Virus record (IMG/VR): IMGVR_UViG_3300046642_000040
Span: 1 to 31,492 of that record
DNA: 31,492 nucleotides
Reading direction: 5' to 3' (one strand)
Source of the DNA: a virus
The position numbers and the translations under genes were made by a program. Below are positions 1 through 6,593 of the stretch, piece by piece. How positions within the stretch are numbered: position 1 is the first letter of the stretch; each line of letters starts with the position of its first letter. The notes beneath the pieces are model-generated. The model was not told the DNA's origin, ran no database searches, and saw only the letters and a list, made by a program, of their open reading frames with translations.

Positions 1-486
1 CGACTTATCGAATTCGACCGGAATCGGATTCTCCTTCAAGAAGCTGTTGGCTTCTTCCAGCCATGTACGCACTTCAGCAGTGAGCTCGACTTTCTTACCC
101 ACACTGATGTGCGGAGTGTAGTCGTCGAAGCTGTGCTTGAATTGCTGGCCGATCAGCTCGTAGTGCAAGCTCATCAACTGCGGACTGTTGATCAACGCAA
201 CGATGATCTTCTCACCGTCTCGCTCTTCCCACACCACGAACTCCGTGAGCTCACCGCTACACGTCCGATCCTTTGGCACGTTGACTTCGGTGGGGATATC
301 ACCCGCATGGTACAGCACGGTAGTATGGAACTCCGTGCTGTTGCGGGTTTTGAACGGCGCGTTCTTCAGGATGCGGCTGAGCAACACGACGGTGCTTTCC
401 GTAGGATCGACCCACACGTAGAAACCACCCGTGGGGTCGCTGCCCGCGATTTCGTCGTACAAGATTCTTGCTGTGACTTTGTTCAC
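1..486 (-). CDS. acb1: Acb1-like 2H phosphoesterase, likely anti-CBASS nuclease (3' end beyond window)
   Basis: The first 162 residues of a GTG-started gene, cut by the window edge. The start is supported by an AAGGAT ribosome-binding site overlapping the stop of the upstream fibre gene. Two H-x-S/T motifs define the 2H phosphoesterase fold: FHTTVLY (His54, Thr56) and YTPHISVG (His126, Ser128), about 70 residues apart. The section between them (VVWEERDGEKIIVALINSP, then a His-Tyr pair) follows the pattern I recall for T4 57B, now called Acb1. That family cleaves 3'-5' and 2'-5' cyclic di- and trinucleotides and so silences CBASS abortive-infection defence. In T4 57B also lies by a tail-fibre gene (57A, the fibre chaperone). 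Seen: the two motifs. Known: the family's activity. Inferred: that this copy is an Acb1 rather than a ligT/RNA-ligase type 2H enzyme. Confidence 0.7.
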   Translation of the reverse strand, partial: MNKVTARILYDEIAGSDPTGGFYVWVDPTESTVVLLSRILKNAPFKTRNSTEFHTTVLYHAGDIPTEVNVPKDRTCSGELTEFVVWEERDGEKIIVALINSPQLMSLHYELIGQQFKHSFDDYTPHISVGKKVELTAEVRTWLEEANSFLKENPIPVEFDKS

Positions 487-495
487 GGGCTATCC

Positions 496-1974
496 TTACG
501 TGTTGAAGTTGCAAAGCTGAAGCGTGATGACGGCACCAACGTTGGCGGAGTATATGATTTCATCGCCGGGCAAGAACATTGCAGTGTCATGGTGACGTCG
601 ACCATAACCACCACCGCCGTCCTTAGTGTTGCGCGAGACCATAGCACCATTGACGGACATGGAAGTGTTGCGCGACTGGTCGTCGACCACCCATGTATGG
701 CAGACACCCTGCTTGAATGTCCGAATCGCATTGTTGCTGGTATATCCAGGAACTGTGTTGCCGCCACCATTGATGACGATGTTGGGTGCCGTCATGGTGA
801 ACGAGATCATCGCGTTGTTACCACCGCTCGGAGTATAGCTGTAGGGCGGAACGCTGATGGTACCGTCACCCGCTTCGTTGATTCCCGAACCGATCTTCAC
901 ACCGCCGAGCTGTCCGCCGTTAGCTATCGGCAGCACATACGGAGGAGGCGGGCTGTACGGCGGATTGGCACTGATACGTCCGTTGCCATCTACAGTCAGG
1001 TAATCACCGACGATCACACCACCGAGGCTACCCGTCGTTGCTTTCGGCAGCACATACTGAGCCGGGATCACGGGCGGATCTACGATCTGGCCGTAGTAGA
1101 CAGTACCGCCGCGCTGATCGTCGCGATAGATACGCATCTGCGAGCCAATGGTCGGCGCACTCAACAGCGGATTGGCATTCAGGTAGAATCGGTAGTTGCC
1201 GCCCGACACCACCACTTGCGATACCGAACGGAAGAACTGGTCGGCAGTCTTGATGACGAAACGTCGGTTCACAGTAGTCAGATCCGACGGGCGGAACTGT
1301 GCAGCCGGGAACTCGATCCACGTAGTCGTGCTGTTGGCAACGGTGAACGCTGAACCGTTTGCCGACGCGTATTCCATATAGCCAGTGGATTCGAGGGACC
1401 ACGTAGCATCGCTGGTGTTGGTCAGCAACGAGCTGTCCCCATGCGAGTTCAGTTCACGCACCAGAACCAGAGGGATATCCGGATTGGCCGACAGTACCGG
1501 CGGATACACATCGCTCCAGTTGTAGACTTCCCATACCGCCGGAGGGCCGTTCATAGTGTCGATCTGGAAGACTGCCGTGGACTGTTGCAGCTTCAGCAGC
1601 GCGTGGAACGTATAGCTCGACACGACGTTGGTTCCCAGCGAGCTGTACTTCGTCTGCGGAGTTTCGAACACAGCCTTCGCGAACATCGTGCCGTCTTGCA
1701 GGAACACTGCGACCTCACCGAAGTCGAAGGGGCCAGCGTCCGGCGGGATCTCCAGAACGATGTCGATAGTGTTGTTGCCGATATTGTTGTACGTGGTGGG
1801 GACGCCGGTGTACAGCAGATTGCCGTTGATCCCAGCGTCGGTAGTCTGCGGGTCGTACCCGTAACCACTGCCGATCTGAAAGCTGGTGATGTGGATGTAC
1901 GGTCCAGTCGGGGTTGCGACACTGGCAACCGCCAGCCCCCGATCGGTGATGAGAAACAGTGGAGTACCTGCCAT
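496..1974 (-). CDS. Tail fibre protein with collar-type N-terminus and duplicated shaft repeat
   Basis: 492 residues, ATG start behind AAGGCATATC. Residues 1-140 (TDRGLA, then FDFGEVAVFL and AKAVFETPQTK) have the composition and order of the N-terminal domain of tail-collar fibres (DUF3751 type), which fixes the fibre to the baseplate. The middle, about 150-300, is not recognisable. Residues 307-335 and 346-374 are two copies of a YVLP...LGG...G...DG.IS repeat, typical of trimeric fibre shafts, separated by a Pro-rich linker. The last 115 residues are probably the receptor-binding tip. It is the last structural gene before the Acb1-like gene, with 9 bases between them. A receptor-binding role is inferred from position and domain pattern. 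Confidence 0.75.
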   Translation of the reverse strand: MAGTPLFLITDRGLAVASVATPTGPYIHITSFQIGSGYGYDPQTTDAGINGNLLYTGVPTTYNNIGNNTIDIVLEIPPDAGPFDFGEVAVFLQDGTMFAKAVFETPQTKYSSLGTNVVSSYTFHALLKLQQSTAVFQIDTMNGPPAVWEVYNWSDVYPPVLSANPDIPLVLVRELNSHGDSSLLTNTSDATWSLESTGYMEYASANGSAFTVANSTTTWIEFPAAQFRPSDLTTVNRRFVIKTADQFFRSVSQVVVSGGNYRFYLNANPLLSAPTIGSQMRIYRDDQRGGTVYYGQIVDPPVIPAQYVLPKATTGSLGGVIVGDYLTVDGNGRISANPPYSPPPPYVLPIANGGQLGGVKIGSGINEAGDGTISVPPYSYTPSGGNNAMISFTMTAPNIVINGGGNTVPGYTSNNAIRTFKQGVCHTWVVDDQSRNTSMSVNGAMVSRNTKDGGGGYGRRHHDTAMFLPGDEIIYSANVGAVITLQLCNFNT

Positions 1975-2000: not shown

Positions 2001-3116
2001 TTAGATGAGGCGCGGGCTGATAACGTTCAGCGGACGCGACTGCTGATCCTTCTGCAACCCGAAGAAGTAGTTGCGGATACCATAGCTAAGGTCGAAGTTC
2101 GCCGGGAATGTTCCCAGATTGGTCTTGCCCGTGGTCACAGTCAGCGCTTCGGTATCCGTCCAACTCAAATTAAGGATGCCGCTGCCGCTGCTACTGTTCG
2201 CACTGGTAGGGCTCAACACACTCGTCGTAGTGTTGCCCGGGATGTCGGCGTACAGCTTGATGAAGTACTGACGCGCCAGAAGCTGAGCTGCTGACGGGCC
2301 CGACGCCGCGTTCATCAGCAGACCGTTGATCTGGAACTGCGATGCGAACTGCGTGAGGTTGAGGCCTAGGGCACGAGCTTGCACACCCAAGAAGCCGAAG
2401 TACGCATTGGTGTCCGTCATGTTGACGATACTACCAACCAACTGAACGTATCCAGCGTCTGCCAGCGAAGGGCTGCGCACAACGTCGATGTTCTGCGAGT
2501 ACAAGCCGATGGAAGGAGTAGCAGGTGCCGCCGGAAGGTTGAGTTTCACGCCGCGGATGATGACGGTGCCACCCAGACGATTGATACCGTTCATGTACCA
2601 CTGCGCGCTGATGTTCTGCACAGCGAACGTGATGACTGGACGGTTCAGATCAGCCATCCATGCGGGAGCCGCACCTGTGCCGATTGGAGCGCCGTTGAAG
2701 TCACCGTACTGAGCATCGCCGTAGAACGTCAGGGTTACACGTCCACCGTAGATGTTGAAGTCGGCGTTCATCGAGAACGACTGTCCGGCTTGCAGTGCGA
2801 TCGTGGTATCCGCCGCGCGATATTGACCGAAGGGGCTTTGCGACGACAGGTAGGCCAGCGCATAGTCCAGCGAGCGGAACGGTGCGGCTTTCGTGCCGTG
2901 TGCCGGATCGTCGACTCCAGTGCTGGAGTTCACGTAGTAAGCAGTCGAACCGAGCTGACCGCCGACGTACAGTCCGTCACCAACGCTCTGAATGGTATTG
3001 CCAGCACGCGCAGACAACGGGACCAGCGCCGGGTTCACAGCCTCGACGCCCGAAGTCATGGGTCGATGGACCTTCGCGGTCGCATCATACACATCAGGGT
3101 TTAAAAAGTTTGCCAT
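2001..3116 (-). CDS. Tail spike/fibre protein, probable right-handed beta-helix
   Basis: 371 residues. The first 50 or so form a compact head probably used for attachment. From about residue 60, AYYVNSSTGVDDPAHGTKAAPF followed by an ALAYL helix resembles the entry of pectate-lyase-like beta-helix spikes, in which an aromatic-Val start and a Gly-Thr...A-F step lead into repeated short strands. The remainder is rich in Asn, Gly, Ser and alternating hydrophobics, as in parallel beta-helices. It is encoded between the gp7/I-like baseplate gene and the other fibre gene. I see no clear catalytic motif, so depolymerase activity cannot be claimed. The ribosome-binding site is weak, suggesting coupling to the gene 7 bases upstream. 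Confidence 0.6.
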   Translation of the reverse strand: MANFLNPDVYDATAKVHRPMTSGVEAVNPALVPLSARAGNTIQSVGDGLYVGGQLGSTAYYVNSSTGVDDPAHGTKAAPFRSLDYALAYLSSQSPFGQYRAADTTIALQAGQSFSMNADFNIYGGRVTLTFYGDAQYGDFNGAPIGTGAAPAWMADLNRPVITFAVQNISAQWYMNGINRLGGTVIIRGVKLNLPAAPATPSIGLYSQNIDVVRSPSLADAGYVQLVGSIVNMTDTNAYFGFLGVQARALGLNLTQFASQFQINGLLMNAASGPSAAQLLARQYFIKLYADIPGNTTTSVLSPTSANSSSGSGILNLSWTDTEALTVTTGKTNLGTFPANFDLSYGIRNYFFGLQKDQQSRPLNVISPRLI

Positions 3117-3123
3117 GTCTTAT

Positions 3124-4377
3124 TTACCAATATGGGGTGAACTGGCCGCTGCCCGGGACGACTTCCTTGAAGCCCTTCGGATTCACGAGCAGATTAGCGC
3201 GTTGATTGCCTACGACCTGTGACGGTATCCAGTCCGGGTGTGTACCCGTCCGTGCGGTAGGTATCACGGTGTAGACCGGGAGTCGAGCATCCGACCGACT
3301 GCTGCCCGGTACTGGAATCCAACCTACGGGTCCGTACAGAACCTTGTATCCGTCAGGCGTACCAGTCGTGGACGCGCCACCACACAGAGTGGTTGGCAAC
3401 GTCGGCGTGTTGCTAACTGCCTGATCATGCAGAGTGTACGCGGGGAGCTTGTTGCCGGACTGGTCCTGAATCCAGGCAGTCGGCTGGCTCAGCATGTAGA
3501 TGCTGGTGTAGTCGGTCGCCGCCGGATTGGACATCAACGCACCTGACGGGACGTTCGGAGCCGTGTCGTAAATCGGCGGACTATCCACACCCATACGCAT
3601 GGTATTGGACAGCACGATTGCCGAGTCGCCCCACAGACCGATGGCTACGACCTTGGCGTCGGTGTATCCAGCTTCCAGGTGGTCAACCACCGGGATCTTG
3701 TAGTCGAGCCTGACAGACTCAAGAACCAGATTGTAGTTGGCGATTTCATAGAAGAAAGACACCAGAGTCTTGATGTCCAGCTTCTCCAAACCACCGGATG
3801 CAATCACAGCTACGTGCGTAGTCGGATACCATGTGCCGCCGTCCCAGATCGCGGTGCCGATAGTCTGGTCACCTTCGTCGTAGAAGTTCACATAGTCCTG
3901 CGTCCACTGCTTGCGCACGTCGAGGCTGGTGGACAGGCAGTAGTTGATGAAGTTGATGAACGACTCGGTGCCTTTGCCGAACCAGTATTGCCCGACCCAT
4001 CGACTGATCGTCTGATAGTTGTCGCTGGTTACAACTCCGGCGTTCTGCAGCTTCATCCCCAACGCGTTCACTTGCTTGACCAGCAAGTCCCGCTCAGGCT
4101 GCGACCACGCCTCGAACGGGATGAGCTGGCTCTCGTTGATGTACGTAGCTTCCATCTCCGGATTGGTCACCCACATATTACGCAGGTTGCCCAAGATCTC
4201 CGTCTTCTTGTCCACAGTCGTTTCGAACACTTCGTCGACCGCGTCCATGAAGTCCGTGAAGTACGGGTTGATCTCCAGATACGGCGGCAGCAGGATTGAC
4301 CGCGGTGTGCGATAACCAAGCCGCCGATTCTCAGCAGGATCGTTAGACGGTGGATCCGTCGTGTATTGGTAGCTCAT
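3124..4377 (-). CDS. Baseplate protein in the gp7 / tail protein I position
   Basis: 417 residues, starting 3 bases after the stop of the J-like wedge gene. Residues 30-230 are helical and rich in aromatic and acidic residues (YLEINPYFTDFMDAVDEVF, RNMWVTNPEMEATYINES). Such a segment directly downstream of a gp6/J-like gene is typical of the tail protein I / gp7 C-terminal region that bridges wedge to fibre. The C-terminal half (from about 270) is Thr/Pro/Gly-rich and beta-like and may be the fibre-docking part. I assign it by gene order plus general character, not by a diagnostic motif. An alternative is a fibre-connector protein with no T4 counterpart. Confidence 0.5.
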   Translation of the reverse strand: MSYQYTTDPPSNDPAENRRLGYRTPRSILLPPYLEINPYFTDFMDAVDEVFETTVDKKTEILGNLRNMWVTNPEMEATYINESQLIPFEAWSQPERDLLVKQVNALGMKLQNAGVVTSDNYQTISRWVGQYWFGKGTESFINFINYCLSTSLDVRKQWTQDYVNFYDEGDQTIGTAIWDGGTWYPTTHVAVIASGGLEKLDIKTLVSFFYEIANYNLVLESVRLDYKIPVVDHLEAGYTDAKVVAIGLWGDSAIVLSNTMRMGVDSPPIYDTAPNVPSGALMSNPAATDYTSIYMLSQPTAWIQDQSGNKLPAYTLHDQAVSNTPTLPTTLCGGASTTGTPDGYKVLYGPVGWIPVPGSSRSDARLPVYTVIPTARTGTHPDWIPSQVVGNQRANLLVNPKGFKEVVPGSGQFTPYW

Positions 4378-4380
4378 GGT

Positions 4381-6165
4381 TTATCCGTTTGACAGACGCG
4401 TCGGATTGTTGCTGTCGATACGCTGCTGACGTTCCGCGTAGAACACGTTGATGGTCAAGCTGTTCAGCGAGTTGTAGCGAATCGGCGTGTTAGCGATCGT
4501 GGTAGGCGCACCACCCGTCGGCGTTATCGTACCGTTGTCCGTGAAGGTCAGCGGCGACGCAGCCGATACGTTAGCCAGAATACCTAGCTGGCCGCTCTTG
4601 CGACCCCAGACTTGATACGAGGCAGCGTTCACGACGGCGGGCCAATCAAGCTTGACCGCATAGCTATTTGTCACACTGACGATCTGCGGGAATGTCCAGT
4701 TGGTCGGAACACCGACTTCGCCCGTGGTAAGCGTGGTGCTGACTGCGTATGCGTATACTGACGAACCCAAACCACCACCGCCCGGAATCAGAGTGTACGT
4801 GGCATCAGGACTTTCCGGGCTGGTGACGACCATCGAACCAGTAGGAGCATTCGGGATGATGTACGATATCTGACCGGGAGCCGCAGCCGTTGCCACGTCG
4901 ATCAAGTCGGACACGTAGAAGTTGGTCATCAACAAACCGGGGCGCGGAGCAAACAGCTTGGTGATCGCGCTGGTCACTGCGGTCTGCACTTGGGACGGAA
5001 TAGCCGTGTTGAACACGTACACGTCCAGCGCCACGTCGCGCGGTACAGCGATCGGATCCTGCCACAGGAAGTACGGAGCGTACATCGTGACTGATTGGCA
5101 GTAGTCCGTGAAGCTCCTCTTCTGCGCCTGTGTCCACGGACTGCTGGTCAACCCGGCTACGCGGATAACGTTCATCCAGCGATAGTCCGAGGGGTTGATC
5201 TCACGCTGTGCCTGCGTCACTGCATCCAGGATACCGGGATACGTGGCGATGGTTGCTTGATACTGCGACTTGGTGACCGCCGACTGGTAAGTCCCGAATC
5301 CACCGGCTGCCACGTTCTTGTAGGCGACCACAGGCTTGTCGTTGGAACCACCGGTCGGATTGGCGTTGAACGTGCCGGTGATCTGCGGGAAGCCAGTGAC
5401 GCTCACTGCCTTGTTGATGGTTACGACGTTGTTCCCGTTCGAACCCTGAGTAACCGGGTACGAGATGACAACCGCGTCGTTGACCTGCGGGATGGTGCCG
5501 AACTGGCCGTTCAACCCACCCAGATTACCGAACTGAATGAGCAACCGTCCGTCAGACATAGACAGGTCAGCGTAACCGGGCACACCGTCGAAGTTCCACA
5601 AGACGCCGAACGACTTGGGAATGATGGTGCCGTTCACCTGCACGATAACGTCCTGATCCGAGATCACGAACCCGTCTTGCGAGGACACGAACGTCTGCCG
5701 TTCAGTACCCAGACCGTTCATGGCGTAGCTGTAGACCTTGCCTTCATACAACGTTACTGCCAATGGCACGCCCGCCATGATGGTGATCTGCGAGCGGTTG
5801 AAGAAGTACGCGCCGCCACATGAGAACTGTGTCAGTGGCGGAAGGCTGACTGATACCGGGCTGTTGAGCGTACCGGTCACACCGGCCGGCAGATAGCGGG
5901 CGATACGCAGTCCCTGCATCTGCGTGATGGACAGGATCGAATCGTCAGCCTGTGCCGTTTCCGAGAACACGTCCTCGACTTCGCGCATGATACGGCCTTG
6001 CGCAAAGGCACCAACAGCGCTGATAAGTTCGATCAGGGTTTGCGATGTCTGCGTTGTGAGGTTGCCTACCCAAGTAGGCTTGTTCGCCAACGCCTGTTGG
6101 AACTGTGCGACGAACTGGTCAACGTCCGCGGTCAGGTCCGACAAAACGAGATTGGTGGTTGCCAT
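4381..6165 (-). CDS. Baseplate wedge protein, gp6 / baseplate J-like, with a fibronectin-like insert
   Basis: 594 residues, ATG behind AGAGAAATAG. The N-terminal 350 residues follow the baseplate J-like pattern: a helical head ending in MREVEDVFSETAQADDSILS, a beta-rich middle, then DAVTQAQREINPSDYRWMNVIRVAG and a DVALDVYVFNTAIPSQVQTAV segment as in the conserved core. T4 gp6 dimers form the ring that controls sheath contraction. Unusual here is a segment at about 455-560 (VYAYAVSTTLTTGEVG ... VKLDWPAVVNAASYQVWGRK ... LTFTDNG) with the Y-x-V, L-x-W and Y-x-V-W spacing of an Ig/fibronectin III domain. It sits between the J core and a C-terminal tail. Confidence 0.75.
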   Translation of the reverse strand: MATTNLVLSDLTADVDQFVAQFQQALANKPTWVGNLTTQTSQTLIELISAVGAFAQGRIMREVEDVFSETAQADDSILSITQMQGLRIARYLPAGVTGTLNSPVSVSLPPLTQFSCGGAYFFNRSQITIMAGVPLAVTLYEGKVYSYAMNGLGTERQTFVSSQDGFVISDQDVIVQVNGTIIPKSFGVLWNFDGVPGYADLSMSDGRLLIQFGNLGGLNGQFGTIPQVNDAVVISYPVTQGSNGNNVVTINKAVSVTGFPQITGTFNANPTGGSNDKPVVAYKNVAAGGFGTYQSAVTKSQYQATIATYPGILDAVTQAQREINPSDYRWMNVIRVAGLTSSPWTQAQKRSFTDYCQSVTMYAPYFLWQDPIAVPRDVALDVYVFNTAIPSQVQTAVTSAITKLFAPRPGLLMTNFYVSDLIDVATAAAPGQISYIIPNAPTGSMVVTSPESPDATYTLIPGGGGLGSSVYAYAVSTTLTTGEVGVPTNWTFPQIVSVTNSYAVKLDWPAVVNAASYQVWGRKSGQLGILANVSAASPLTFTDNGTITPTGGAPTTIANTPIRYNSLNSLTINVFYAERQQRIDSNNPTRLSNG

Positions 6166-6173
6166 CTATTTCT

Positions 6174-6593
6174 CTACTGAGTGATCGTGAAGTTAATGGC
6201 CTGTCTTGCACTCGTGAGTCCTACACCAAACGCCAGCCTCACGTTGTAACCGGGGAGCGTCAGGTCAGGTGTGATAAACGAGTTAGACATGTCGAGGTTG
6301 ATGCGCGGTTCCCAGCGAGCGATAGCCTGGATCATCGCGATCTGCATCTTGTTGGCGGTTGTCTGATCGATCGGTTCCTGCAAGAACTGATACCACATCG
6401 AGCCGTACTCCGGCTGGAAGATGCGGGACCGGGAACCTATGGGGCAGTTGAACAGATTGAAGAGGCTACACAACTGGATAGCCTGTGCGTCAGGCAAACG
6501 ATCCGGTAGATTGTTCATACCGAACTGAGTATTTACGTCGATCCAGGTTGCGCCGTCCAACGACGTCTGGTACGAAGTGAGTTGAGCGGCCAT
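6174..6593 (-). CDS. Baseplate wedge protein gp25-like
   Basis: 139 residues, the normal size for the gp25 family (T4 gp25 is 132). The family's hallmark Glu-Pro-Arg is present as RWEPRI at residues 93-98, preceded by a TTANKMQIAMIQAI helix. The upstream segment (NCPIGSRSRIFQPEYGSMWYQFLQEP) matches the conserved approach in which GSR...PE(Y/F)G leads into a Leu-Gln-Glu-Pro helix. gp25 clamps gp6 and templates the first sheath ring. It lies between the spike and gp6-like genes. This is one of the safest assignments in the tail cluster. Confidence 0.88.
   Translation of the reverse strand: MAAQLTSYQTSLDGATWIDVNTQFGMNNLPDRLPDAQAIQLCSLFNLFNCPIGSRSRIFQPEYGSMWYQFLQEPIDQTTANKMQIAMIQAIARWEPRINLDMSNSFITPDLTLPGYNVRLAFGVGLTSARQAINFTITQ

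Follow-up and report, generated by a model that had tools for sequence, protein, structure and literature searches.

Does the truncated reading frame at the edge of this viral record encode an Acb1-type enzyme, and if so, what would its substrates be? Members of the Acb1 family cleave the cyclic nucleotide alarm signals of bacterial CBASS and help phages survive CBASS immunity. The window, the whole stretch of DNA analyzed here, is an entire IMG/VR record of 31,492 bases; the acb1-like frame occupies positions 1-486 of its minus strand, opening with a GTG at 486 and running open to base 1. The first-pass annotation had taken a neighboring gene to be cut by the window edge, but it is the acb1-like frame itself that is cut: the edge removes 7 of its 169 codons plus the stop, leaving 162. 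Three further contigs (26,020, 26,310, and 217,605 bases) match the window's first 8 kb at an identity that rounds to 100%. The same contigs carry the acb1-like gene, and the full-length protein of 169 residues was read from L003:6001-6510. Third-position GC in the frame is 0.741, compared to 0.698-0.730 in six neighboring genes. A plus-strand frame at 1-1353 overlaps genes of the opposite strand and was set aside. The terminase encoded in the window is closest (52.6%) to those of the Burkholderia phages BcepSauron and BcepSaruman, while the first 12 kb of the window have no DNA-level relatives in the phage collection.

The family assignment rests on several comparisons. The window protein scores 49.8 bits against the curated Pfam model of Acb1 (PF23474, cut-off 27, E=3.9e-13), and 50.9 bits against a profile built from seven T4-type Acb1 sequences, none of them from the branch described below; the best of 2,000 shuffled versions scores 8.1. 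A sequence search of solved structures returns 9q2g (E=1.9e-29) and 9q2y (4.9e-28), both deposited as "Anti-CBASS protein Acb1" and, by entry title, derived from Burkholderia phage BCSR5, followed by FBB1 Acb1 (3.4e-4), with no further entry at E=10 or better. The branch profile (A2) recovers FBB1 Acb1 at 5.6e-8; its score for 9q2g is by construction, because A2 includes the 9q2g stretch. Compared profile to profile with hhalign, the branch and the T4-type sequences match at 99.1% (E=5.5e-19). All 42 sequences of the alignment used for structure prediction match the Acb1 model, partly by construction, since every row was recruited by Acb1 similarity. There was no match to the window protein in PADLOC-DB and none in the plasmid search, and when genome contigs were scanned using the alignment of the branch, none of the 60 pattern matches was a relative. 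Identity to T4 and FBB1 Acb1 is 24% and 19%, in keeping with the divergence that the first-pass annotation had noted, and its identification of the gene as Acb1 is backed by Pfam, the solved structures, the profile comparison, and the fold. By these comparisons, the frame is a real, diverged Acb1-family gene.

To place it, we used a profile scan that matched 361 stretches, including 86 relatives; the best 80 of these 86 were kept and yielded 68 distinct sequences. Together with 8 named rows and the 9q2g stretch they form an alignment of 77 rows, 66 of them outside the branch that contains the window protein and 11 inside (BcepSaruman, the 9q2g stretch, and otherwise IMG/VR loci). For structure prediction, portal fusions and near copies were omitted, leaving 42 of those sequences (alignment A4). 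The tree was built from 47 of the 77 aligned rows, with E. coli ThpR as the outgroup. In it, the ten branch rows sampled group together firmly (support 99/97), but the position of the branch relative to the rest of Acb1 is weakly supported (88/83), and ThpR lies on a very long branch. The gene is carried by the window phage, BcepSaruman, BcepSauron, Motura, BCSR5, and the contigs L039, L040, L041, L043-L045 (one sequence), L047-L048 (one sequence), and L049. BCSR5, of 227 kb, is placed with Sarumanvirus in passages of PMC12388082, which deals with its genome and taxonomy; the relevant passages of PMC12352046 concern BCSR52 only. Six large records were searched, and each contains exactly one Acb1 match at E<=0.1.

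Separately, four portal proteins (PF06381) carry a C-terminal Acb1 domain (PF23474, E 1.7e-29 to 6e-42), at L106:204-2249, L113:531-2381, L100:495-2420, and L103:294-2210; a tyrosine replaces the first catalytic histidine in the L103 fusion. The Acb1 profile also matches residues 486-609 of the solved Pam3 portal, 8hds (E 1.4e-9). Among the matches listed in a literature search for Acb1 together with portal protein, none is evidently about portal fusions.

The AlphaFold2 model of the window protein, computed from the 42-protein alignment, has a mean pLDDT of 92, with residues 1-6 below 50. It is predicted to adopt the compact 2H phosphoesterase fold, superposing on FBB1 Acb1 at 1.8 A over 135 residues. 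VIA-align ranks the open-lid BCSR5 structure 9q2y highest (Z 23.7), followed by the closed-lid 9q2g (20.6) and FBB1 Acb1 (16.3 and 16.0). The BCSR5 phosphodiesterase, which falls in the same tree branch, is also the closest solved relative by sequence (29-35% identity, depending on the aligner, over nearly the full length). Foldseek, one of the checks that the first-pass annotation had proposed, likewise puts the BCSR5 entries at the top, followed by those of FBB1. That annotation had named a best match to LigT-type enzymes as the result that would speak against Acb1, and this did not occur; LigT and ThpR share the superfamily fold (Z up to 12.2) and the two H-x-T/S motifs, visible in E. coli ThpR, but are only 9-13% identical, align at 3.4-3.9 A, and rank under the Acb1 structures. 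The penguinpox cGAMP phosphodiesterase (9ciw, 9bkq) has the 2H fold as well, with Z of 9.3-9.4 and 12% identity, 139-140 residues aligning at 3.4 A. A 182-residue protein of Motura (BFVD A0A514CSM4), 15% identical to the query with a TM-score of 0.71, may be another 2H protein of that phage.

The residues that define Acb1 chemistry can be located directly. According to passages of Hobbs et al. 2022 (PMC9117128), T4 Acb1 uses H44, T46, H113, and T115 for catalysis and stacks the bases with Tyr12, Trp74, Phe107, and Trp147; the tetrad mechanism was established on the FBB1 and T4 enzymes, and nine more family members cleave 3'3'-cGAMP and cAAA. The window protein aligns the complete tetrad, His54 (codon at 325-327; this and all following codons are on the minus strand, placed from the reading frame), Thr56 (319-321), His126 (109-111), and Ser128 (103-105). 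The last position is threonine in 9 of the 11 branch rows, and serine replaces it in 4 of the 66 rows outside the branch; counting either residue, the tetrad is intact throughout the branch (11/11). Across the 77 rows, the equivalents of T4 Y12, T46, and H113 are kept without exception and H44 in 76. Three of the base-stacking aromatics are likewise present, as Tyr23 (418-420), Trp86 (229-231), and Phe120 (127-129), the counterparts of Tyr12, Trp74, and Phe107. The two H-x-T/S motifs, Trp86, and the L-I-N-S-P segment are thus where the first-pass annotation had seen them. It had also counted the spacing of the motifs as evidence; the spacing is present, but it is weak evidence alone, because two H-x-[T/S] motifs 60-80 residues apart also occur in 659 of 20,000 shuffles of the protein.

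We put at roughly 80% the probability that this gene encodes an Acb1-family 2H phosphodiesterase of a jumbo-phage branch, shared with BCSR5, BcepSaruman/Sauron, and Motura, that most likely degrades host CBASS signals. A cyclic di- or trinucleotide made by host CBASS enzymes would be captured between the stacked Y23, W86, and F120, and the H54/T56 and H126/S128 tetrad would break a 3'-5' bond without a metal, so that the CBASS effector would not be switched on. The anti-CBASS activity of this copy is what we infer from its family. For T4, excerpts of two papers on Panoptes (PMC12657230, PMC12657218) disagree on the weight of Acb1 in infection, and one of them reports that T4 Acb1 cuts 2'3'-c-di-AMP in vitro.

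The range of substrates is a separate matter. In passages of PMC9117128, Glu141 of T4 Acb1 contacts adenine N6 and is named as the cause of the adenine requirement, and cGG is not cut by the T4 enzyme. The first-pass annotation had held that a lack of Acb1's nucleotide-binding residues would count against its proposal, and here the outcome is divided: the three aromatics are kept, while Glu141 and Trp147, the latter in the C-terminal lid, have no counterpart. The window protein ends at about T4 position 144-145 (VIA-align ranges and a hand count), so nothing stands at 147. The 141 site would fall on A165 or C166, according to the register chosen, in the strand-matched alignment (A1, with VIA-align ranges that end at model residue 169), which we prefer to a MAFFT alignment of the full set that puts T4 141/147 at N153/F159; in either register, there is no glutamate at 141 and no tryptophan at 147. 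The tail motif E.[LIVA]...[WFY] occurs in 0 of 11 branch rows (9q2g being without its last residues) versus 49 of 66 others, and with [EKQ] in the first position in 1 of 11 versus 57 of 66; the L043 match to the relaxed motif is taken to lie in the last strand, outside the tail. Outside the branch, the 141 column holds glutamate in 55 of 66 rows and lysine in 7, and the 147 column holds tryptophan in 47; since these two residues characterize the majority of the rows and are absent from others, we do not treat them as family-defining.

Because both residues are missing, the substrate range of T4 Acb1 should not be carried over to this protein, and an altered nucleotide preference is a reasonable proposal; the preference of the window protein may differ from that of T4 Acb1. 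A stronger form of this idea, which is a version of the Acb1 reading and overlaps it in its odds, is that the enzyme has been retuned, no longer needs adenine in the absence of Glu141, and cuts cGG or the cyclic nucleotides of other defenses besides or instead of the T4 set. The adenine contact described for Glu141, the alanine or cysteine at its site, and the early C-terminus favor such a shift. On the other side, of the 10 branch members whose C-terminus is complete, 4 carry an acidic residue at position 166 in the structural register; some of the branch may therefore retain an acid there, which the window protein does not. The rows with lysine outside the branch also mean that Glu141 is not universal. 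We regard retuning as possible but somewhat unlikely.

The same end of the protein raises the question of the lid, which excerpts of a MedComm commentary (PMC12064943) place at the N-terminus in poxvirus enzymes and at the C-terminus in phage Acb1. Here the C-terminal arrangement differs from that of T4/FBB1 Acb1 and includes a helix at residues 137-152. By their titles, one BCSR5 entry is open-lid (9q2y, which is also a variant with alanine in place of the first catalytic histidine) and the other closed-lid (9q2g). In alignments to the model, the open form covers residues 6-169 (1.3 A) and the closed form residues 19-169 (2.0 A), and it is from this difference that an N-terminal lid is read. 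The putative lid is the segment of residues 1-18 (433-486, minus strand); its A6 and Y10, like N147 and L150 of the extra helix, do not vary across the 11 branch rows. The model comparison suggests that this segment moves and acts as a lid in place of the C-terminal one of T4. That the branch combines an N-terminal lid, as in poxvirus cGAMP phosphodiesterases, with a different base preference (for example, for rings without adenine) in the members lacking Glu141 is a tentative proposal, to which we give rather less than even odds.

A role outside immunity has also to be considered, namely RNA repair, in which the 2H phosphodiesterase would open 2',3'-cyclic phosphate ends so that phage RNA ligases could act on them; in passages of PMC7824862, jumbo-phage 2H enzymes are assigned in part to such a function. 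The PHROGs family matched by the window protein, phrog_755 (E=2.1e-22), bears the label RNA ligase, which many public records also use, and BcepSaruman and BcepSauron match all three RNA-ligase families searched. Weak matches to TIGR02258, the NCBIfam model of RNA 2',3'-cyclic phosphodiesterases, occur in three branch members, whose scores of 14.5-21.3 bits (E 0.024 to 1.9e-4; 14.5 bits for the window protein) fall well short of the 65.7-bit cut-off, and T4 Acb1 has no match to it. The related model 2_5_RNA_ligase2 (PF13563) gives the window protein about 23 bits, under its cut-off of 27, and across six records it is under the cut-off in four and just above it in two. Against this, the protein fits Acb1 models and structures much more closely than those of LigT, and the aromatics of the Acb1 pocket are kept. 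No match to the three RNA-ligase families was found in Motura, a complete genome by its record, in the 217-kb contig with the identical gene, or in the 154-kb L041 and 243-kb L047 contigs, although contigs may be incomplete. RNA repair is weakened because Motura and the 217-kb contig have the gene and match no RNA-ligase family, and we consider it improbable. With the Acb1 reading, public records that name branch proteins 'RNA ligase', or 'prohead protease' in one BcepSauron record, are corrected here.

The gene neighborhood places acb1 at the end of a structural run on the minus strand. Directly upstream is a tail-collar/fiber gene (496-1974; PF12571, E=2.8e-8), preceded by a frame without a Pfam or PHROGs match (2001-3116; a 364-residue frame occupies the equivalent place in L033), a tail protein (3124-4377; phrog_14098, E=6e-15), a baseplate wedge subunit (4381-6165; phrog_219, E=6e-51), and a gp25-like baseplate wedge protein (6174-6593; PF04965, E=5.8e-9). 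As the first-pass annotation had it, acb1 lies directly behind the fiber genes, its start falling 9 bases past the collar/fiber stop. An AAGGA resembling a Shine-Dalgarno sequence (493-497, minus strand), 6 bases before the GTG, overlaps the collar-gene stop codon, an arrangement suggestive of cotranscription; acb1 may be expressed late, along with the baseplate genes. Promoter and terminator predictions are near shuffle level (2 promoters found versus 1.4 in shuffles, 0 terminators versus 1.7). The second anti-defense gene that had been suspected next door found no support, the frames beside acb1 in L003 (55 residues downstream; 131 and 132 residues, convergent) matching no Pfam or PHROGs family.

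The order baseplate, tail, collar/fiber, acb1 is common to the window, BcepSaruman, BcepSauron, and L033, with one extra gene inserted ahead of acb1 in BcepSaruman and BcepSauron. T4-type phages have a comparable neighbor, a tail-fiber assembly or chaperone gene. In L039, L040, and L041, a single gene of 181-197 residues stands ahead of acb1; the next gene upstream is fiber-like in L041, matches no family in L040, and in L039 shows only head-fiber and unknown-family repeats. The setting is different in Motura, L047, and L049, where acb1 precedes a head maturation protease. An inactive relic or structural tail protein that retains the fold, as the position behind the baseplate and fiber run might suggest, is very improbable, since the tetrad is intact in all branch rows and the gene, lying elsewhere in Motura-type phages, is not tied to the tail.

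Other genes near acb1 deserve mention in their own right. Small cysteine-rich proteins, alike by eye, are encoded at L003:7564-7779 (minus strand; a match to phrog_54, DksA-like zinc-finger) and by BcepSaruman gp267 (L005:12658-12876), on opposite strands relative to acb1. At L033:7123-12469 (minus strand), three large adjoining frames (704, 699, and 378 residues), convergent to the acb1-like gene, contain by eye repeats resembling W-N-G and T-S-P-D-G-I-T-W and probably encode fiber or adhesin proteins.

With a BCSR5 structure from this branch already in the PDB, the advance is incremental; literature searches for the BCSR5 enzyme (structure 9Q2G, BCSR5, Acb1 lid, Acb1 jumbo phage) returned no paper that we recognized as describing it. 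The detail that is new, from the alignments, is a jumbo-phage branch of Acb1 with three stacking aromatics and without Trp147, the window copy also lacking Glu141. A branch with the tetrad, and a copy within it lacking the residue held responsible for adenine dependence, constitutes a natural test of the determinants of substrate range in this family. If the N-terminal lid and the altered base preference are true, these phages may defeat CBASS types beyond the reach of T4 Acb1.
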